A DNA stretch of 64,000 nt from Frigoribacterium sp. PvP032 (lineage in GTDB: Bacteria; Actinomycetota; Actinomycetes; Actinomycetales; Microbacteriaceae): the NCBI RefSeq assembly GCF_017833035.1, contig NZ_JAFIBM010000001.1, positions 1,550,001 through 1,614,000 of the forward strand, in the 5' to 3' direction. A program made the translations under genes and the position numbers. Below are positions 19,025 to 27,405 of the stretch, in pieces. The notes beneath the pieces were generated by a model. The model made no database searches, had not been told where the DNA came from, and worked only from the letters and a program-made list of their open reading frames with translations. Positions within the stretch are counted from its first letter, which is position 1; every line of letters starts with the position of its first letter.

Positions 19025-21025
19025 CTACGGCGCTCGGGTGAGGTCGACGGACAGCACGTGCACGGGCTCGACGAAGGCGTCGAGGCGGACGTAGTTGTCG
19101 TCGCCCCAGGTCCACGACTGGCCGGTGATGAGGTCGCGCACCGTGTACGTGCCGCCGGGTGCGAGCCCGAACTTCGTCACGTCGAGGTGCACGGTCGTCT
19201 CGCGGGCCGAGTGCGGGTCGACGTTCGCGACGACGATGATCGCGTCGGCTCGGCCGCTGCGGGTGTGCGCCCGCGACAGGTACTTCGAGTAGACGAGCAC
19301 GGCGTCGTCGTCGCTCGAGTGCAGGTCGAGGTTGCGCAGCTGCCGCAGCGCCGGGTGCGAGCTGCGGATCCGGTTGAGCTGGGTCAGGTAGGGGGCGAGG
19401 GTCGCGCCCTCCGCCTCCGCGCCGGCCCAGTCCCGCGGCTTGTACTCGTACTTCTCGTTGTCGATGTTCTCTTCCGAGCCCGGCCGGGCGACGTCCTCGA
19501 AGAGCTCGTAGCCCGAGTAGACGCCCCAGGTCGGCGACGCCGTCGCGGCGATCGCGGCCCGCACCTTGTAGGCCGGGCGCCCGCCGTACTGCAGGTAGGG
19601 CGTCAGGATGTCGTGGGTGTTGACGAACAGGTTCGGGCGCAGCCAGGCGCTCGTCTCCTTCGACAGCTCGTCGAGGTACTCCTCGAGCTCCCACTTCTCG
19701 TTGCGCCAGGTGAAGTACGTGTACGACTGGTGGAACCCGACGCGGGCGAGCGCCTGCATCATGGCCGGCTTGGTGAACGCCTCCGAGAGGAACACCACCT
19801 CGGGGTTCGTCAGCCGCACCTCGTGCAGCAGCCACTCCCAGAAGCGGACCGGCTTCGTGTGCGGGTTGTCGACGCGGAAGATCGTGACGCCGAGCTCGAT
19901 CCAGTGCCGCACGATGCGCAGCACCTCGCGGCTGACGCCCTCGTAGTCGTTGTCGAAGTTCAGGGGGTAGATGTCCTGGTACTTCTTCGGCGGGTTCTCG
20001 GCGTAGGCGATCGTGCCGTCGGGCAGGGTCGTGAACCACTCGGGGTGCTCGGTGACCCACGGGTGGTCGGGCGAGCACTGCAGGGCCAGGTCGAGCGCGA
20101 GCTCGAGGCCGGTGTTCTTGGCCGTGTCGACGAACCAGCGGAAGTCCGCGAGCGTGCCGAGGTCGGGGTGGACCGCGTCGTGGCCGCCGTCGGGGGAGCC
20201 GATCGCGTAGGGCGATCCCGGGTCGTTCGGACCTGCGGTCAGCGTGTTGTTCGGCCCCTTGCGGAACGTCGTCCCGATCGGGTGCACCGGCGGGATGTAG
20301 AGGACGTCGAAGCCCATCCGGGAGATCGCGGGGAGGCGGCGGGCCGCGGTGCGGAACGTGCCGCTCTTCCACGTGCCGTCGGGCAGCTTCTTGGCGCCCT
20401 CGCTGCGCGGGAAGAACTCGTACCAGCTGCCGACCGCCGCACGGCTGCGCTCGACGCGCAGCTCCTCCGGGGCGCTGCGGGTGACGAGGCTCGCCATCGG
20501 CTTCGCGGCGAAGACGGCCGCGAGGCGCGCGTCGGTCGCGACACGGAGGCGCGAGCCCGGCGAGAGGGCTTCGTTCGCGAGCGCCTTGGCCGCGTCCCGC
20601 ACGAGAGTCGTGTCGGGGTAGTCGGGGGCTGCGGCGACGAGGAGGCGGCTGCCGATCGCGAAGGTGACCTCGACGTCCAGCTCGGCCGGGATCTTGATCT
20701 CGGCCGTGTGCAACCAGGTCGCCCAGTCGTCCGTGTACGCCTCGACCTGCCAGGTCCAGTCGCCCTCCGTCTCGAGCTGCACCTCCGTCGTCCAGCGGTC
20801 CGTGCCGGGCAGGCCCGCGACGAGCGGGTGCCGGGACTCGGACCCGGAGGGGTCGGTCAGGACGAGGACGGCGCCGACGACGTCGTGGCCCTCGCGGAAG
20901 ACCGTGGCGCCGAAGGGCACGACCTCTCCGGCGAAGGCCTTGGTCGGGAAGTCCCGGTCGGGGGTGGTCGGGGAGAGCGCCGTGACGGGGATCCGCCCGA
21001 CTCTGGGTTCGTATGCAGTCGCCAC
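19025..21025 (-). CDS. glgE: Maltosyltransferase GlgE (maltose-1-phosphate to alpha-1,4-glucan)
   Basis: A 666-residue GH13_3 enzyme transferring maltose from alpha-maltose-1-phosphate onto alpha-1,4-glucan, the polymerising step of the GlgE pathway. Seen are YIPPVHPIG near residue 247, the nucleophile in FRVDNPHTKP (Asp near 386) typical of GlgE, the acid Glu in VVFLSEAFTKPAMM (near 415), and a C-terminal sandwich. TreS/Mak and GlgM are not in this window, so the source of maltose-1-phosphate is elsewhere. The ATG at 21025 is used (MATAYEPRVGRIPV). Confidence 0.95.
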   Translation of the reverse strand: MATAYEPRVGRIPVTALSPTTPDRDFPTKAFAGEVVPFGATVFREGHDVVGAVLVLTDPSGSESRHPLVAGLPGTDRWTTEVQLETEGDWTWQVEAYTDDWATWLHTAEIKIPAELDVEVTFAIGSRLLVAAAPDYPDTTLVRDAAKALANEALSPGSRLRVATDARLAAVFAAKPMASLVTRSAPEELRVERSRAAVGSWYEFFPRSEGAKKLPDGTWKSGTFRTAARRLPAISRMGFDVLYIPPVHPIGTTFRKGPNNTLTAGPNDPGSPYAIGSPDGGHDAVHPDLGTLADFRWFVDTAKNTGLELALDLALQCSPDHPWVTEHPEWFTTLPDGTIAYAENPPKKYQDIYPLNFDNDYEGVSREVLRIVRHWIELGVTIFRVDNPHTKPVRFWEWLLHEVRLTNPEVVFLSEAFTKPAMMQALARVGFHQSYTYFTWRNEKWELEEYLDELSKETSAWLRPNLFVNTHDILTPYLQYGGRPAYKVRAAIAATASPTWGVYSGYELFEDVARPGSEENIDNEKYEYKPRDWAGAEAEGATLAPYLTQLNRIRSSHPALRQLRNLDLHSSDDDAVLVYSKYLSRAHTRSGRADAIIVVANVDPHSARETTVHLDVTKFGLAPGGTYTVRDLITGQSWTWGDDNYVRLDAFVEPVHVLSVDLTRAP

Positions 21026-21139
21026 GGTGGCGACGCTACCCGGTCTCGGGGCCTGGTGTCCCGCCTCCTCGGGGGACGGCGCGAGACGGCCGGGCGGATC
21101 CGCCGGGTGGTCGGCGGGTGAGGGCGGGTGCCCCTCGGA

Positions 21140-21383
21140 CTGGGTGCATGTGAGCGCATGGAAAACCCTGTCGGCATTTCGGGGGACCCGGTAACGTCGA
21201 CCTCGTCAGCAGGCTGGCCCGCCGCGGGACCCGAACCCCCGTGAGCCCGGCGCCTGCCGACGGCGTCGTCGGACCCGAACCCCACGACGCGGCACTGCCC
21301 CGACACACGTCACCCCGGACCGGACCCGCCCGACGCGGCCTCGGGGCGTCGTTCGACGCGCCTGGGCGCGGACAGGACAGAAC
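21140..21383 (+). promoter_or_regulatory. Promoter and long leader of the TasA-like cluster (copy 1)
   Basis: A CTGTCG -35-like box at 21168-21173 and a TAACGT -10 at 21192-21197 (18-base spacer holding GGGGGACC) lie about 190 bases upstream of the first TasA-like gene. Upstream is CTGGGTGCATG, and the leader contains GAGCCCGGCGCC (21243-21254) and GTCACCCCGG (21309-21318). All these elements recur in the same order at 24135-24310. The leader length suggests RNA-level control, but no known riboswitch class was recognised. Confidence 0.6.
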
Positions 21384-21947
21384 ATGAACACCTTCGTCAA
21401 GAGCGCCGTCGCCGGCGCGGCCGGCATCGCCCTCCTCCTCGGCGGCGCGGGCACCTTCGCCGTCTGGAACAGCACCGCCAGTGCCTCGGCGGGCGTGCTG
21501 CAGACGGGCCAGCTCGGCCTCTCGACCGTGGCGGGCTCCGGCCAGTGGAAGGACCTCAAGACCGGGTCGGTGCTGAGCGCCGCCGAGCTGACCTCGTACC
21601 GGATGATCCCGGGGACGCAGCTGGAGTACACGGTGCCCGTCACGGTGACGGCCACCGGCACGGGCCTGAAGGCGGTGTTCTCGTACGACCTCGGCGCGAC
21701 GTCGAGCACGCTCACGAGCGTCGTCCCCGTCCTCACCGTTCAGAAGAGCCGCACCGACGCGGGCCTGCCGACCGGCTTCGCGGCCGTCAGCGGCAAGGCG
21801 AACTCCTTCTCCGTCACGCCGTCGGCCACGAGCACCGACGCCGTCGCGCGCCTCGGCATCAGCGTGCCGACCGACGCCGACAACAGCACGCAGAACAAGA
21901 CGCTGGACCTCAGCAAGGTCGTCTTCACGCTGACGCAGGTCGAGTAG
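21384..21947 (+). CDS. Alternate-type signal peptide (TasA/SipW-type) exported protein 1
   Basis: A 187-residue secreted protein. Its N-terminus has a hydrophobic core ending GGAGTFAVWNSTASASAG, the alternate signal with a GTFAxW pattern that marks TasA/CalY-type substrates of SipW-like signal peptidases. The mature part is a Thr/Ser/Val-rich beta protein without cysteines, as in TasA-type fibre subunits. It is the first gene of a four-gene run ending with a SipW-type peptidase, so it is the likely main structural subunit. Fibre formation is an inference from the family. Confidence 0.85.
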   Translation: MNTFVKSAVAGAAGIALLLGGAGTFAVWNSTASASAGVLQTGQLGLSTVAGSGQWKDLKTGSVLSAAELTSYRMIPGTQLEYTVPVTVTATGTGLKAVFSYDLGATSSTLTSVVPVLTVQKSRTDAGLPTGFAAVSGKANSFSVTPSATSTDAVARLGISVPTDADNSTQNKTLDLSKVVFTLTQVE

Positions 21948-21959
21948 CAGGAGGCGCCC

Positions 21960-22586
21960 GTGCCCCGCAGCCCGCTACCGCGCCGCCGCGCGCGCCACGC
22001 CGTCCCGCGCCGAGGCGTGACGCGGCACGGCGTGCTGCGGCGCGTGTGGACGGGCACGGCCCTGCTGAGCGGTGCCGTCGCGCTGGGGCTCGCCGCCACC
22101 GGCGGCTCGTACGCGCTCTGGAGCTCGTCCGCTCCTGGCCGCACGACCGGGACCGTCACCACGGGCACGGCCGCCCTCGCCGTCACGCAGCCGACCGGGC
22201 TCACGTCGACGGGCCTCCTGCCAGGGACGTCCGCCGTCGGCTCGTTCTCGCTCGCGAACCGCGGGGCCGTCCCGTTGGCGGCGACGGTGACGACGGCCGG
22301 GGCTCGGGCGATGTACGACGGTCCCGTGGCCGGGGCCTCGCTCGACGAGCTCCAGCTGCGGGTGGCGGCCCAGCCAGCCGGCGGGACCTGCGCCTCCGCG
22401 CTCTCCGGGGCCGCCGCCTCCCGCCTGGTGGGGTTCCGTGCGGCCGACGTGCTGCCGCGGCTCGAGCCCGGCGCCTCCGCGACGATCTGCGTCGAGGTGC
22501 TGCTCGACGCGGACGCCCCGCAGTCCGTGCAGGGCGCCGTCGACAACTGGTCGGTGCGCGTCGTCGGCACCCAGGTGGCGTCGTGA
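21960..22586 (+). CDS. Alternate-type signal peptide exported protein 2
   Basis: A 208-residue protein with a very basic N-terminus (about 28 residues), a hydrophobic core and the GGSYALWSSSAPG alternate signal motif near residue 48. The mature region is beta-rich and has a CASAL...TICVEV pair of cysteines that could form a disulfide. It resembles TasA/CalY minor components. The GTG at 21960 is 12 bases after the previous stop with AGGAGG upstream. Its stop overlaps the next GTG. Confidence 0.82.
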   Translation: MPRSPLPRRRARHAVPRRGVTRHGVLRRVWTGTALLSGAVALGLAATGGSYALWSSSAPGRTTGTVTTGTAALAVTQPTGLTSTGLLPGTSAVGSFSLANRGAVPLAATVTTAGARAMYDGPVAGASLDELQLRVAAQPAGGTCASALSGAAASRLVGFRAADVLPRLEPGASATICVEVLLDADAPQSVQGAVDNWSVRVVGTQVAS

Positions 22587-23506
22587 CCGGGGGAGGGCCC
22601 GGGCGGCGGCTCCTCGGCCGCGGTGCCGTGCTCGTCGCCCTCGTCGTCGCGCTCGTCGGCACCGGGACGGGCACGGGCTGGGCGCTCTGGACCGCCTCCG
22701 TCGACGCCGCCTCGCAGACGACGTTCGCCAAGGTCGACCTCGAGCTCGAGTCGTCGAGCCCCCGCGCCGTCGACTACACGGCCTCGGGCCAGTCGGTCAC
22801 GACCGCGATCACGATCTACAACGGCAGCACCGTACCGGCGGACTACCGGCTGTCCGTCGTCGTGGGGACGACGGGCGCCGTCTCGGCCGACCTGCCGTCT
22901 CGGGTCGACGTGCGCGCCTGGCTCGCGACCAGCGCCTCCTGCACGTCGGACGTCCCCCCGGATGCGCTGAGCGGCACGTGGGCCTCGGCGCCGGTCACGA
23001 CGGGGACCGTCGCCGTCTCGAGCAGGGCGACCTGGTGCTATCGCTCGACCGTCTCCTCCTCGGCGCCCGACAAGGCCACGGTCAACCCGCGGTTCGAGGT
23101 CGTCGGCGGCTCGCACGGCTGGACCGACCGGGCCAGCATCCAGGACTTCTACCAGAACACGCGGTACGCGACCCCGGCCCCGGCCGCGCGTGCGCTCAGC
23201 TGTCGCACGACCGACACGGGAGGCGGCACGTCCTACGCGACCGTCTCGTGGGACGCCCCGCTCGACTCCGAGCAGTGGGGGCTGTTCGTCGCCGGCCGCA
23301 GGGTGGGCAACACCGTGTCGGGCCAGGCCCCGACCAAGGAGCACGTCGTGACCCGCGACCACGTGCCGGAGTCGGTGGTCCCCGACGGCCGCGTCGTCGT
23401 CGAGGTCCGCTCGGTCGCCGGAGCCGAGCCCGGCCCGGTTGCCTGGACGGGCGCCGTCGACGTCGCGCCGAACGCGCAGGGGCAGCGCCAGGTGTCGTGC
23501 CCGTGA
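22583..23506 (+). CDS. Alternate-type signal peptide exported protein 3 (larger)
   Basis: A 307-residue protein with the GTGWALWTASVDAAS alternate signal motif near residue 33, a TasA-like beta domain, and a C-terminal region of about 100 residues (from about 205) with a fibronectin-like look (SYATVSWDAPLDSEQWGLFV). Several cysteines are present. This could be a cap, anchor or adhesive component of the fibre. The GTG at 22583 overlaps the preceding stop (GTGA), so translation is coupled. Confidence 0.8.
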   Translation: MTGGGPGRRLLGRGAVLVALVVALVGTGTGTGWALWTASVDAASQTTFAKVDLELESSSPRAVDYTASGQSVTTAITIYNGSTVPADYRLSVVVGTTGAVSADLPSRVDVRAWLATSASCTSDVPPDALSGTWASAPVTTGTVAVSSRATWCYRSTVSSSAPDKATVNPRFEVVGGSHGWTDRASIQDFYQNTRYATPAPAARALSCRTTDTGGGTSYATVSWDAPLDSEQWGLFVAGRRVGNTVSGQAPTKEHVVTRDHVPESVVPDGRVVVEVRSVAGAEPGPVAWTGAVDVAPNAQGQRQVSCP

Positions 23507-24126
23507 GAACCGGTCGCGAGCGCACCGGTCGCGAGAGCGCCGACCGCGAGAACACCGGCCTCCGGGGCCTCGCCCGTGCGCTGCTGCTGGGCCTCAGCAT
23601 CGGGGCCCTGGGCCTCGTCGTCGCGCTGGCGGCCCTGCTCGTCGTCGTGCCGAAGGCGACGGGCTCGACCCCGCTCACCGTCCTCACGAGCTCGATGGAG
23701 CCGACGTTCCCGCCGGGCACGCTGGTCGTCGTGCGCCCCGTCGACACCGACCTCGTGGAGCCGGGCGACGTCCTGACGTACCAGCTCGAGTCCGGCGAGG
23801 CGGCGGTCGTGACCCACCGGGTGGTCGAGGTCGTGTCGACGTCCGACGGCATGCGCTCGTTCGTCATGAGGGGCGACGCCAACGGCAGCGTCGACGCTGA
23901 CCCGGTCATGCCCGTGCAGGTGAAGGGGGCCGTCTGGTACAGCCTCCCGCTCGTCGGCTGGGTCGCGCAGGCCGTGGGCGGCGAGGGGCGCGGCTGGGTC
24001 GCCACGGCCGTCGGCGTCGTCCTCTGCCTGTACTCGGTCGTCGCGCTCGGCACGGGGGTGCGGCGCAGGAGGCGCGCCGGGGCAGCCGAGACCGGTCACG
24101 GTCGCCGGGCGGCCGGAGCACGCTGA
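23503..24126 (+). CDS. SipW-type signal peptidase I
   Basis: A 207-residue membrane serine peptidase with one N-terminal and one C-terminal helix. The nucleophile motif is LTSSMEPTFPPG (Ser near residue 65). The general base position carries His in VVTHRVVEV (near 106) instead of the usual bacterial Lys, the mark of the ER/SipW type. RGDANGSVDADPV near 126 gives the conserved Asp region. It very likely processes the three upstream proteins, whose signal peptides are of the alternate type. The GTG at 23503 overlaps the preceding stop; a GTG at 23497 is a possible alternative. Confidence 0.92.
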   Translation: MRTGRERTGRESADRENTGLRGLARALLLGLSIGALGLVVALAALLVVVPKATGSTPLTVLTSSMEPTFPPGTLVVVRPVDTDLVEPGDVLTYQLESGEAAVVTHRVVEVVSTSDGMRSFVMRGDANGSVDADPVMPVQVKGAVWYSLPLVGWVAQAVGGEGRGWVATAVGVVLCLYSVVALGTGVRRRRRAGAAETGHGRRAAGAR

Positions 24127-24134
24127 CCCCTCAA

Positions 24135-24310
24135 CTGGGTGGATGCGATTGCATCGAACCGTCTTGTCGGCCATCAGGGGGACCAGTACAGTCGGACCTG
24201 TCGACGCGGCCTGCCCGCCCGGGGTGCGATCCGCCCCGAGAGCCCGGCGCCCTCGACACGCTCGTCACGACGACGAGCACCGTCCTGCCGTCACCCCGGT
24301 CGATCGCCGT
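24135..24310 (+). repeat. Second copy of the TasA-cluster promoter-leader, without a gene
   Basis: CTGGGTGGATG, TTGTCG (24164-24169), a 17-base spacer with GGGGGACC, and a TACAGT -10 (24187-24192) are followed by GAGCCCGGCGCC (24240-24251) and GTCACCCCGG (24290-24299). Order and spacing closely match copy 1 at 21140. Nothing resembling a TasA-like gene follows. The rest of 24311-24527 contains only the terminator of the convergent binding-protein gene. Confidence 0.7.
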
Positions 24311-24444
24311 GGGTGCCGTCCCAGGTCGCTGCTGCAGCGCGCCCGGACCCGGCCCGAACCGGTCCGGTCGCCGGCAGCGGCCCCCTGCGAGGACCAGGCA
24401 CGCGCGCCTCGCGCGCATCGCGCGCACGAGACCCGCACAGCACG

Positions 24445-24488
24445 GAGCCCCGCCCGTCCCGCGCCGTGGCGCGGTCCGAGCGGGGCTC
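24445..24488 (-). terminator. Terminator hairpin after the peptide-binding protein gene
   Basis: GAGCCCCGC (24445-24453) pairs with GCGGGGCTC (24480-24488), with an inner GCGCC/GGCGC stem. It lies 40 bases beyond the stop of the minus-strand gene. Confidence 0.6.
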
Positions 24489-24527: not shown

Positions 24528-26201
24528 CTACTTCGTGAAGCCGACGATCGTCCAGTCGAGGTCCGACGCGCCGGCGCGGGCGCCGTAGTTCGCGAGCTTC
24601 GGGCTCTGCGCCGAGATGAGCGGCTGCTGGATGATCGGCATCGAGTGCCCGATCTCCCAGATCGCCTCGTCGGCCTGGTTGTACAGGTCGGCCGCGGCGT
24701 CGGGGTCGCCCTCGGCGACCGCCTCGTCCAGCAGCGAGCTGATCTCGTCGCTCGAGACGCGGCCGTAGTTCTGGCCCTGCTCGTCCTGGTTGTAGATGCT
24801 GACGCCCGAGGCCTGGTAGCCGGTGCCGGCCCAGACGAAGATCGTCATGTCGTAGTTGCCGGGCGTGACGTTGTCCTCGAAGAAGGCGTCCGTGCCGACC
24901 GCGTTGATGTCGAGCTTGATGCCGACGGCGGTGAGCTGGCTCTGGATCACCTCGGCGAGCTGCTGCGACACCGGCGCCGACGAGGGGATCGTGATCGAGA
25001 TGGCGAGCTGCTCGCCGTCCTTCGCGCGCACGTCGCCGTCCATCTCCCAGCCCGCGTCGTCGAGGATCTTGCCGGCCTCCTCGACGTCGTAGTTGCCGGT
25101 CTCGCCCGCGTTGTCCTGGTAGGCCCCGTCGGTGCTGAGGTAGAGGTGGTTGTTCAGCGTCGAGACTTCGTAGGGCAGCGTGCCCGTGATGACCTTGCCG
25201 AGCGCGTCACGGTCGACCGCGTGCTGGATCGCCTGGCGCACCGACTCGTCGGCCAGCAGGCCCTTCGTGCTGAAGTCGACGTGGGTGTAGCGAGCCGAGG
25301 GCGCGGCGCGGAGCTCGCTGCCGTCCGCGTCCTTCACCCGGTCGTACCGGTCGGACGAGTTCGCGTAGACCTGGTCGATCTCGCCGTTGAGGTACGCGTC
25401 GATGTCGGCGTCGCCGTCGAGGGCGCGGAAGATCACCGTGTCGAGCTTGGGGGCGTCGCCCCACCAGTTCTCGTCGGGCACCATCGTGACGGTCTGGGCC
25501 GTCTGGTCGATCGCGTCGATCTTGTACGGGCCGGCCGAGATCGGCACGGCGTCGACGTAGGCGGTGTTGAACGCGGTCGGGTCGTTGTAGATCTTCGCCG
25601 GGTACAGCGGGGCGAACATCGACTTCCAGTCGGAGAACGGCTCGGAGTAGGTGACGACTACCTGCTTGTCGCTCGTGCCGGGCTCGACGCTGGCCATGCG
25701 GTCGGGGCCGAGGGTGCTGCCGACCAGGTACTCGGCGTTCGTGCCCTTGAGAGCCGTCCACCAGGCCTGGAAGTCGGCCACCGTGATCGGGGTGCCGTCG
25801 TTCCACTGCGCGTCGGGGTTGATGTCGTAGGTGACGACCAGGGGGTCGTCGCTCGTGGCCTCGGCGCTCGTGACGAGGTCCTCGTCGATCTGCGGCACGC
25901 CCTCCTCGTCGATGCGGAAGGGCTGCGGCAGGATCGCGCTCTCGATCAGGGCGGCGTCGACGAGCGCGCCGTCGAGCTGGCCGTAGTTCCACTGCGAGGG
26001 CAGCTGCGAGAGCGGCAGGGTCAGCGTGCCGCCCTGCTCGACGTCGGCGGCCGCGGTCGCGTTGATGTCGCCGGTGGGGGACAGCTCGCCGTTCTTGGGA
26101 GCGCCGTCGCCGTCCTGGCCGCCTCCGCCGCTGCACGCCGTAACGACGAGAGCGAGTGCGGCGAGGCCCGCGACGACGCCGGCCTTCTTCGTGTTCTTCA
26201 T
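24528..26201 (-). CDS. Peptide ABC transporter substrate-binding lipoprotein
   Basis: A 557-residue family 5 extracellular solute-binding protein (DppA/OppA type). The signal peptide ends ALVVTACSGGGG, a lipobox, so it is a lipoprotein on the outer face of the membrane. Family pieces seen are PQPFRIDEEG, YDINPDAQWNDGTPITVADF near residue 120, and the terminal AGASDLDWTIVGFTK. It captures oligopeptides or similar ligands for the adjacent permeases. Unusually, it is transcribed away from its permease genes, which start 218 bases beyond its own start. The ATG at 26201 gives the signal peptide. Confidence 0.93.
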   Translation of the reverse strand: MKNTKKAGVVAGLAALALVVTACSGGGGQDGDGAPKNGELSPTGDINATAAADVEQGGTLTLPLSQLPSQWNYGQLDGALVDAALIESAILPQPFRIDEEGVPQIDEDLVTSAEATSDDPLVVTYDINPDAQWNDGTPITVADFQAWWTALKGTNAEYLVGSTLGPDRMASVEPGTSDKQVVVTYSEPFSDWKSMFAPLYPAKIYNDPTAFNTAYVDAVPISAGPYKIDAIDQTAQTVTMVPDENWWGDAPKLDTVIFRALDGDADIDAYLNGEIDQVYANSSDRYDRVKDADGSELRAAPSARYTHVDFSTKGLLADESVRQAIQHAVDRDALGKVITGTLPYEVSTLNNHLYLSTDGAYQDNAGETGNYDVEEAGKILDDAGWEMDGDVRAKDGEQLAISITIPSSAPVSQQLAEVIQSQLTAVGIKLDINAVGTDAFFEDNVTPGNYDMTIFVWAGTGYQASGVSIYNQDEQGQNYGRVSSDEISSLLDEAVAEGDPDAAADLYNQADEAIWEIGHSMPIIQQPLISAQSPKLANYGARAGASDLDWTIVGFTK

Positions 26202-26418
26202 GGCACTCCGAACTAGATGGTGTGAAAAAAGCCGGTCACCCCAGTGGTCCGAGGTGCTGTCCCGCTCGGTGATCTCGAGCCGGGTCCCCCCTCGTCCGGG
26301 ACCGACGAGTGCCACGCTACGGATCCGTGCACTCGATGCGAACTTTTCTGCGACTTCGTTACACGCCTGAAACGTCGGGGTACTGGTGGCCTGCGGGGTA
26401 CGTCTATGTTGTTCTTCC
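26202..26418. promoter_or_regulatory. Divergent promoter region of the peptide transporter
   Basis: This 217-base gap serves the binding-protein gene (minus) and the permease operon (plus). On the plus strand TATGTT (26405-26410) lies 8 bases before the permease ATG, so that transcript may be leaderless. On the minus strand GGAG precedes the ATG. No palindromic operator was obvious. Confidence 0.4.
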
Positions 26419-27405
26419 ATGGCCCGCTATCTCGCGCGGCGGCTGGTGTACTACGTCGCTCTCGTCTTCATCGCCACGTCCCTGACGTACTTCCTGGCGT
26501 CGGCGACGTTCACCCCCCGGTCCGCCTACGCCGAGCGCAACCCGCGGCCCACCGAGCAGGTGATCGACGCGAAGCTCGACTCGATCGGCGTCAACGACAA
26601 GGTCCCGGTGGTCGAGCGGTACGCCTCCTGGCTGGGCGGCGCCGTGACCGGAGACCTGGGCCAGACCATCCAGGACAAGCCGGTGAACACGGAGTTCTGG
26701 CCGCGTCTCGGGGTCAGCCTCCGCCTCCTGCTCGCCGGTTCCGTCATCGGCATCGTGCTCGCCATCGCCGTCGGCACGTGGAACGCGATCCGCCAGTACA
26801 AGCTGTCCGACCGCGTCTCGGCGATCCTCTCCTTCGTGCTGATCTCGACGCCGGTCTTCCTCTCCGCGGTGCTGCTCAAGATCGGGGCGACGCAGCTCAA
26901 CAGCGTGCTCGGGTTCCAGCTGATCAGCTTCACCGGCGAGGCGACGCCGGGGCTCGGGGGCGGGTTCGCGACCGTCCTCGGCGACCGTGCGGTGCACCTC
27001 CTGCTGCCCACCATCTCGATCGCCGCCGGGCTGATCGCGATCTACAGCCGGTACCAGCGCTCGACGATGCTCGACGTGCTGCAGGCGGACTTCATCCGCA
27101 CCGCCAGGGCGAAGGGCCTCAGGAGGCGCCCCGCCATCGTCAAGCACGGTCTGCGGACCGCGCTGATCCCGATGACGACGCTCTTCGCCTTCGCCTTCCT
27201 CGGCGTGCTGACCGGTGCCACCTTCACCGAGAAGATCTTCGGCTGGAACGGCCTCGGCGCGTGGTTCATCGACGCCGTGCAGGGCAACGACGTCAACGTC
27301 GTCGTCGCCTACACGCTCTACAGCGCCGTCGTCGTGCTCTTCGCCGGCTTCGCCAGCGACGTGCTGAACGCCGTCCTCGACCCGCGCGTGCGCAGCCAGA
27401 AGTAA
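26419..27405 (+). CDS. Peptide ABC transporter permease (DppB type)
   Basis: A 328-residue inner-membrane permease of the DppB/OppB family with 6 helices. The N-terminal MARYLARRLVYYVALVFIAT is the family's first helix. The cytoplasmic EAA-like loop reads DFIRTARAKGLRRRPAIVKH near residues 227-246. It forms the translocation pore with the next gene's product. The ATG at 26419 is the start that gives this canonical N-terminus. Confidence 0.94.
   Translation: MARYLARRLVYYVALVFIATSLTYFLASATFTPRSAYAERNPRPTEQVIDAKLDSIGVNDKVPVVERYASWLGGAVTGDLGQTIQDKPVNTEFWPRLGVSLRLLLAGSVIGIVLAIAVGTWNAIRQYKLSDRVSAILSFVLISTPVFLSAVLLKIGATQLNSVLGFQLISFTGEATPGLGGGFATVLGDRAVHLLLPTISIAAGLIAIYSRYQRSTMLDVLQADFIRTARAKGLRRRPAIVKHGLRTALIPMTTLFAFAFLGVLTGATFTEKIFGWNGLGAWFIDAVQGNDVNVVVAYTLYSAVVVLFAGFASDVLNAVLDPRVRSQK

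Follow-up and report, generated by a model that had tools for sequence, protein, structure and literature searches.

Why should the region ahead of a gene cassette recur directly behind it, where it has no gene to drive? The question arose from a first-pass annotation of a 64,000-nucleotide (nt) stretch of Frigoribacterium sp. PvP032 (contig NZ_JAFIBM010000001.1; hereafter the window, which corresponds to 1550001-1614000 of a 3.33-Mb genome). The annotation had seen that the sequence upstream of tasA1, the first TasA-like gene of a TasA/SipW-type cassette, is repeated after the cassette's signal peptidase gene; we refer to the two repeats as copy A and copy B, respectively. The best overall explanation, and one towards which we lean on balance, is that A belongs to a cis-regulatory leader RNA and that B is an orphan non-coding RNA (ncRNA), perhaps a decoy.

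The two copies lie where the annotation had placed them, and A was the best match to B, other than B itself, in a scan of the + strand of the window at a step of 50. Local alignment of 253-nt stretches gave a score of 64, above all 500 dinucleotide shuffles (mean 22.4, maximum 40); similarity in the leader alone was weaker, being reached by 4/500 and 6/500 shuffles under two scorings. The parts common to A and B are an operator-like block, a -35, a GGGGGACC spacer, a -10, and ~57 nt of RNA, arranged as follows (ORF, open reading frame).

21139-21261, + strand: copy A, whole shared repeat (alignment with B)
21139..21159, + strand: copy A operator-like block ACTGGGTGCATGTGAGCGCAT (zero-mismatch match genome-wide only with B)
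21169..21197, + strand: copy A promoter, -35 TGTCGG (21169-21174), GGGGGACC spacer, -10 TAACGT (21192-21197), from the sequence
21205..21261, + strand: copy A 5'-terminal RNA hairpin, predicted +1 at 21205, P2 loop with ACCCGAA (21229-21235)
21263..21290, + strand: copy A second leader hairpin, loop with ACCCGAA (21273-21279), from the leader fold
21205..21383, + strand: predicted tasA1 5' untranslated leader, 179 nt (182 with the ATG)
24134-24257, + strand: copy B, whole shared repeat (alignment with A)
24134..24154, + strand: copy B operator-like block ACTGGGTGGATGCGATTGCAT (genome scan)
24164..24192, + strand: copy B promoter, -35 TTGTCG (24164-24169), GGGGGACC spacer, -10 TACAGT (24187-24192)
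24200..24257, + strand: copy B 5'-terminal RNA hairpin (P1, bulged inner helices, P2)
24200..24367, + strand: predicted orphan RNA B, 168 nt, with no ORF common to all nine copies
24343..24367, + strand: B 3' hairpin CCGGACC-C-GG-CCCGAA-CC-GGTCCGG, terminator-like, without a T-run

By eye, the promoter appears to be of the sigma-A type, with a predicted start and with the -10 of both A and B 17 nt past the chosen -35 hexamer. Conservation had been proposed to run through a leader of about 130 bases, which is too long: the similarity kept by relatives stops ~57 nt past +1, and the rest of the leader is common to near relatives alone. One of the later matches cited, GAGCCCGGCGCC, falls inside this conserved part; the other, GTCACCCCGG, lies beyond it and was found in just 5/21 genus transcripts, all from genomes G000, G012 and G013.

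A conserved hairpin and its loops

In both A and B a hairpin begins at the predicted +1, composed of P1, bulged inner helices (GGC-CU-GCC / GGC-GCC) and a variable P2. Promoters were tabulated for 21 genus elements and -10 spacing for 22, and the distance from the -10 to the start of P1 is 7 nt in 20/22 elements and 6 nt in the other 2, which places P1 where a transcription start is expected. One core fold (P1, GGC/GCC, a two-base bulge, GCC/GGC, a C/CC loop, P2) accommodates 19 distinct Frigoribacterium elements, the bulge being CU, CA or UG; A of G013 is short of one C. When strands were swapped among elements, the pairing of cognate strands was not equalled in 5000 swaps for either P1 or P2 (19 and 13 distinct sequences, respectively).

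The same architecture recurs in a second genus (that of G119), which we suspect to be Curtobacterium. There tasA is present in 30/40 genomes, one marginally; leaving the marginal locus (L214) aside, 17/29 loci match a strict core pattern and 25/29 a relaxed one, and 24 of those 25 share the core fold (L206 being the exception). The GGC/GCC helix, nearly invariant in Frigoribacterium, is replaced there by GUC/GAC, AUC/GAU or ACC/GGU, that is, by compensatory changes. In swaps over 25/29 loci (without L209, L210, L212 and L213), cognate pairing was reached 3 times in 5000 for P1 (22/5000 when trimmed) and 0/5000 for P2 (18 and 15 distinct). At L209 and L210 a different long hairpin takes the place of the motif upstream of tasA, behind the same kind of promoter by eye.

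In a model-fitted alignment with 38 rows, 37 of them distinct (hits from 32/43 sources, the 11 omitted including L205, L206 and L208, where model R1 ranked another site first), 9/13 pairs showed two-sided changes. Cells with two-sided changes numbered 79 against 34.0 in shuffled alignments, and the paired fraction was 91.8% against 76.8%, neither value being reached in 500 shuffles; six slid structures all did worse (29-55% paired). Because such an alignment leans towards its structure, the swap tests are important beside it. Taken together, these comparisons make a conserved RNA structure in the A/B hairpin well supported. Neither the window stretch nor any of five related loci had a match in Rfam 15 at gathering score, relaxed thresholds included; the top entries at relaxed thresholds were unrelated families below gathering score, such as mir-278 in L131.

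The second feature to emerge was the loop sequence. Among 21 genus transcripts (12 A and 9 B, the A leader of G003 left out), there are 10 occurrences of CCCGAA, spread over ten transcripts that were picked by the analyst (shuffled 1.09, maximum 5). Upstream of tasA in other genera (loci for 28 non-Frigoribacterium genomes among 68 matched, of which 27 were used and L176, from the second genus, was moved out), ACCCGAA occurs 16 times in 10/27 regions, against 0.75 in shuffles (maximum 3), and its reverse complement once, a sense-strand bias that argues for action at the RNA level. The shorter CCCGAA occurs 20 times in 13/27 of these regions, against 4.0, and not at all in matched coding stretches; 14/20 occurrences are fully unpaired in local folds, as opposed to 34/324 random sites. 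CCCGAR lies in hairpin loops in 19/41 cases in Frigoribacterium and 26/59 in the second genus (27 loci), where random sites are wholly unpaired in 24/315 and 30/405 cases, respectively; in 9/27 second-genus loci such a loop sits ~30 nt ahead of the start codon. This family-wide enrichment in leaders points to a post-transcriptional level at which TasA/SipW-type genes of Actinobacteria may be controlled.

The orphan copy and its history

As the annotation had stated, no gene stands behind B, the next large gene-fitting ORF being an oppA-like gene on the opposite strand. The B unit, from 5' to 3' hairpin, spans 168-194 nt and is found in 9/16 Frigoribacterium genomes. A small conserved ORF within it was considered and rejected: GTG frames occur in near relatives, none is common to all nine copies, and an ATG is present in 3/9. 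The 3' hairpin is the only match in the genome at <=3 mismatches; its loop is CCCGAA in 7/9 genomes and CCCGAG in 2/9, and the variants in G001 and G010 still pair, via compensatory changes.

In G012, G013 and G003 the 5' hairpin of B (+1 to +58) does not differ from that of G000 (100% identity), where 4-fold sites of the neighbouring glgE-like gene are 71-83% identical, and in five further genomes it is 72-84% identical (4-fold sites 63-68%); over all 11 genome pairs compared, the hairpin exceeds the 4-fold sites in 10. Together with covariation in two genera, this supports the first-pass proposal of a functional RNA. The 3' hairpin is 80-100% identical to that of G000 in the eight other genomes (96-100% in 6/8), and the middle of B is only 35-49% identical in five distant ones. 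A hairpin related to the 3' hairpin lies past tasA1 in genomes that have A alone (BLAST matches in 6/7, E 0.008 to 1.8e-4), with the loop ACCCGAC in the five inspected. Since the ends of B thus resemble those of the tasA1 unit (leader start and post-tasA1 hairpin), B looks like a tasA unit cut down to its two ends. In L130 and L133-L136, all from A-only genomes, a strong hairpin of the GACCGGACCGC-ACCCGAC-GCGGTCCGGTC type lies between tasA1 and tasA2, where it is perhaps an attenuator setting the tasA1:tasA2 ratio.

A copy was found in all 16 Frigoribacterium genomes searched (best E <= 6.8e-13 in each), and a tasA1 match in 13/16. Six genomes (G000, G002, G003, G007, G013 and G015) carry A, the cassette and B; seven (G004, G005, G006, G008, G009, G011 and G014) carry A and the cassette with no B seen, the map of G004 stopping at a contig end before sipW; and three (G001, G010 and G012) have a single element with a B-type 3' hairpin and neither the cassette nor a tasA1 match. 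In a glgE tree the A-only genomes form one clade (100/100), and G012 groups with G000, G003 and G013 (100/100). The glgE-side flank of G012 is of the A type and switches to the B type directly before CCCCTCAACTGGG, at about the repeat's left boundary, which shows a loss of A and the cassette with B kept, rather than movement. The annotation's idea that the cassette had moved by recombination between the copies is supported only in part. Distant tasA1-like genes (L052-L055; 29-33% identity) occur elsewhere in G009, G004, G015 and G006.

Outside the genus, the searches scored only 16 candidates per genome, so that diverged copies may be missed. On these terms model R1 gave seven weak hits outside Frigoribacterium among 299 family genomes, strong hits of model R2 were restricted to Frigoribacterium and the second genus, and a relaxed core pattern matched in 71/299 genomes (7 of them Frigoribacterium). 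In the 40 second-genus genomes R2 made 24 strong hits (E <= 6.3e-6), all right before tasA, and a weaker 25th, also in place (G337). A GGGGGAC-(1-6)-TAnnnT promoter precedes the motif in 11/11 Frigoribacterium and 25/25 second-genus copies; it precedes none of the other-genus hits checked (0/7 for R1, 0/19 for fetched weak R2 hits, 0/23 for fetched relaxed-pattern hits), and a lone pattern hit in Actinomadura, with no TAnnnT -10, was taken as chance. Searches of plasmids and phages gave no match to B, and a mobile-element reading was rejected.

The genes around the two copies are as follows.

19025-21025, - strand: glgE-like gene
21384..21947, + strand: tasA1, alternate-type signal peptide protein (TIGR04089, 106.8 bits, cut-off 60; no Pfam match)
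21960..22586, + strand: tasA2-like protein (Pfam Peptidase_M73, 21.7 bits, below the 22.5 cut-off)
22583..23506, + strand: third cassette ORF, 307 residues, without a family (a weak NCBIfam match alone, 12.9 vs 456)
23503..24126, + strand: SipW-like signal peptidase (TIGR02228, 71.7 bits, cut-off 51.85)
24528-26420, - strand: oppA-like gene, next large gene-fitting ORF past B (homology across relatives)

With TIGR04089, TIGR04088 and TIGR02228 all above cut-off, the cassette holds both a SipW-dependent signal peptide protein and a SipW-like peptidase, as a TasA/SipW-type cassette should; the score against the Bacillus SipW equivalog NF046067 was 70.1, below its cut-off of 190. The name glgE is our assumption, and oppA is partly so, beside the homology across relatives. 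Between B and the convergent oppA-like gene an inverted repeat, GAGCCCCGC...GCGGGGCTC (24445-24488), was seen by eye and is likely the terminator of that gene. Six genomes lack the oppA-like gene past B; common to them at this position are a convergent gene for what we take to be a small membrane protein, and presumably a glgX-like gene.

Competing explanations

We propose that the same transcription-unit head, made up of an operator-like block, a promoter and a bulged hairpin at the predicted +1, is present twice, as A and as B. A would be the 5' end of the 179-nt structured tasA1 leader, and B would yield an ORF-less RNA of ~168 nt ended by its terminator-like hairpin, its simplest origin being a duplicated tasA unit that lost the gene and kept the two ends. 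Via a hairpin-recognising factor, which might read the bulged core and/or the CCCGAA loops, the leader would control how the tasA/sipW messenger is translated or degraded; B, whose promoter is similar, could titrate that factor as a decoy. It is quite probable that this is a conserved regulatory RNA and that B is a real ncRNA gene; the decoy step is much shakier, and we would sooner bet against it than for it.

A regulated promoter acting at the DNA level alone, built from the CCCCnnnACTGGG block, ATGCnnnnGCAT-like half sites and TTGTCSGC...GGGGGAC, with an incidental RNA and with B driving nothing useful, is unlikely, though the likeliest of the rivals. The operator block has exact matches in the 3.33-Mb genome at A and B only (the next best has 2 mismatches), and in a set of 28 non-Frigoribacterium regions upstream of tasA (the 27 used above and L176) CCCC(3-6)TGGG occurs in 11/28 (shuffles 1.2, maximum 4) and TGTC[CG]NC...GNGGAC in 8/28 (shuffles 0.1, maximum 1), perhaps marking a family-wide operator. 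These blocks give a supported lead for the putative shared regulator that the annotation had raised, acting at the DNA level. L212 and L213, of a more distant second-genus tasA type, have a like promoter and a short leader with no hairpin, and so form natural test cases of a promoter without the RNA. Set against a DNA-only role, the compensatory changes fall in the presumed transcribed part, and the orphan upstream block has drifted in G015, G007 and G002, where it is 29-46% identical to that of G000 and the hairpins have been kept. GGGGTAC-type words also occur in 7/28 of the outside-genus regions (L158-L185), above every shuffle. An improbable variant on the RNA side is a metabolite riboswitch whose bulged core binds a small ligand, with B a riboswitch-type RNA: in its favour, covarying helices enclose two kept features, a 5' bulge of two bases (CU or CA in most cases) and a C/CC internal loop; against it, no Rfam riboswitch matched even at relaxed E-values, the element has only ~57 nt, and the gene context hints at no metabolite.

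That B is the functionless, decaying leftover of a tasA-unit duplication is a less likely account than the DNA-only one. It would explain why B ends as tasA1 units do, why it is missing from A-only genomes and why G001 and G010 differ as much as 4-fold sites; it sits poorly with pairing that is intact in 9 genomes on three branches, with identity above the 4-fold level in 10/11 pairs, and with B being kept where the cassette was lost. Least probable of all is that the copies persist as recombination sites for loss or gain of the cassette. G012 speaks for it, since the cassette is absent there and an A-type glgE flank runs into B; against it, the junction lies by the left margin of the repeat and outside the shared part, the covariation of the RNA would want another cause, and searches of plasmids and phages gave no match to B.

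Several results weigh against a leader RNA with an orphan ncRNA. Transcription of A and B, the +1 and the terminator are predictions, the 3' hairpin of B lacks a U-run, and the candidate binding partner is hypothetical. In the model-fitted alignment the number of pairs with two-sided changes (9) was reached by 24/500 shuffles, and pair types (17 vs 15.6) by 125/500; a non-structural MAFFT alignment of 20 genus elements gave covariation not above shuffles, a null that we attribute to register shifts in P1, for which reason the swap tests and the model-fitted alignment were used instead. Shuffles and swaps alike ignore kinship among the sequences. Hairpin identity between G001 and G010 (0.72) equals the 4-fold level (0.72), and the excess between G000 and G010 is small (0.72 vs 0.66). 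As to the loops, many CCCGAG hits sit in P2 stems, ACCCGAA is not enriched in the window (10 vs 6.0), 14/27 other-genus tasA regions have no CCCGAA, and it is absent from A of G015 and from B of G001 and G010, the latter two having CCCGAG. B was not seen in seven of the genomes with A (the map of one, G004, being cut by a contig end), and no orphan was found among R2 hits in the 40 second-genus genomes (19 weaker hits with E up to ~0.003 inspected, 0/19 with the promoter). The genomes without tasA1 hold one strong element each by model search, all others having E >= 0.002; with no visible client for a decoy in them, B would have another target there or be a relic.

Relation to known regulatory RNAs

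A leader RNA with an orphan, perhaps decoy, ncRNA has its closest parallels among targets of ANTAR proteins. EutX (Enterococcus) and Rli55 (Listeria) are decoy small RNAs that titrate the ANTAR protein EutV (PMC8934654, PMC8079631). B would resemble them as a small RNA beside the controlled operon, with leader-like loops and titration of a regulator; it differs in that no riboswitch was found in it, in its CCCGAA loops in place of A1..G4 hexaloops, and in a regulator that is hypothetical. In Mycobacterium tuberculosis, PPE1-5' RNA binds PdtaR and is proposed to sequester it (PMC8131098). It likewise derives from the 5' end of an actinobacterial mRNA and forms several hairpins, and its action is on an ANTAR regulator; B is instead a separate unit, and binding of A or B by an ANTAR protein is hypothetical.

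ANTAR proteins (PF03861) are encoded in 16/16 Frigoribacterium genomes, every genome having one that scores 80.1 bits. ANTAR targets have two stems with hexaloops joined by a 2-25 nt linker, with A1 and G4 in the loops (PMC8164766). Like those of Actinobacteria, the A/B RNAs are mRNA-linked stem-loops, with G4 where the loop is exactly CCCGAA, as in the B 3' hexaloop and some second-genus hexaloops; unlike them, they have no A at position 1 (the B-type hexaloop starts with C), their loops range from 6 to ~9 nt, and the larger A-leader loops lack the G4. Some leaders hold two CCCGAA-loop hairpins, with varying loop sizes and linkers. Having G4 without A1, the A/B RNAs are not filed here as ANTAR targets; they may nonetheless work like ANTAR decoys, with an ANTAR or another protein. 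The boldest extension, which we consider improbable, is that A, B and the tasA leaders of Microbacteriaceae are targets of one regulator that reads CCCGAA loops, possibly the conserved ANTAR protein with a relaxed loop rule, and that B is a promoter-matched decoy gene, a former tasA unit without its reading frame; the whole would form a switch by which Actinobacteria control matrix secretion through RNA titration.

Among the titles and abstract openings listed in searches of one open-access collection, none dealt with such a leader in these bacteria. A further precedent is SreA of Listeria, a SAM riboswitch transcript that acts in trans (excerpted in PMC8079631). Like the RNA proposed here, SreA is of the leader type and is active in free form too. 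It acts by base-pairing with its target, however, and arises by termination, whereas B is a separate copy. What sets the present locus apart is a structured RNA without an Rfam 15 match that occurs as a cis leader and in orphan form side by side, so that the birth of a small-RNA gene from messenger ends could be studied directly.

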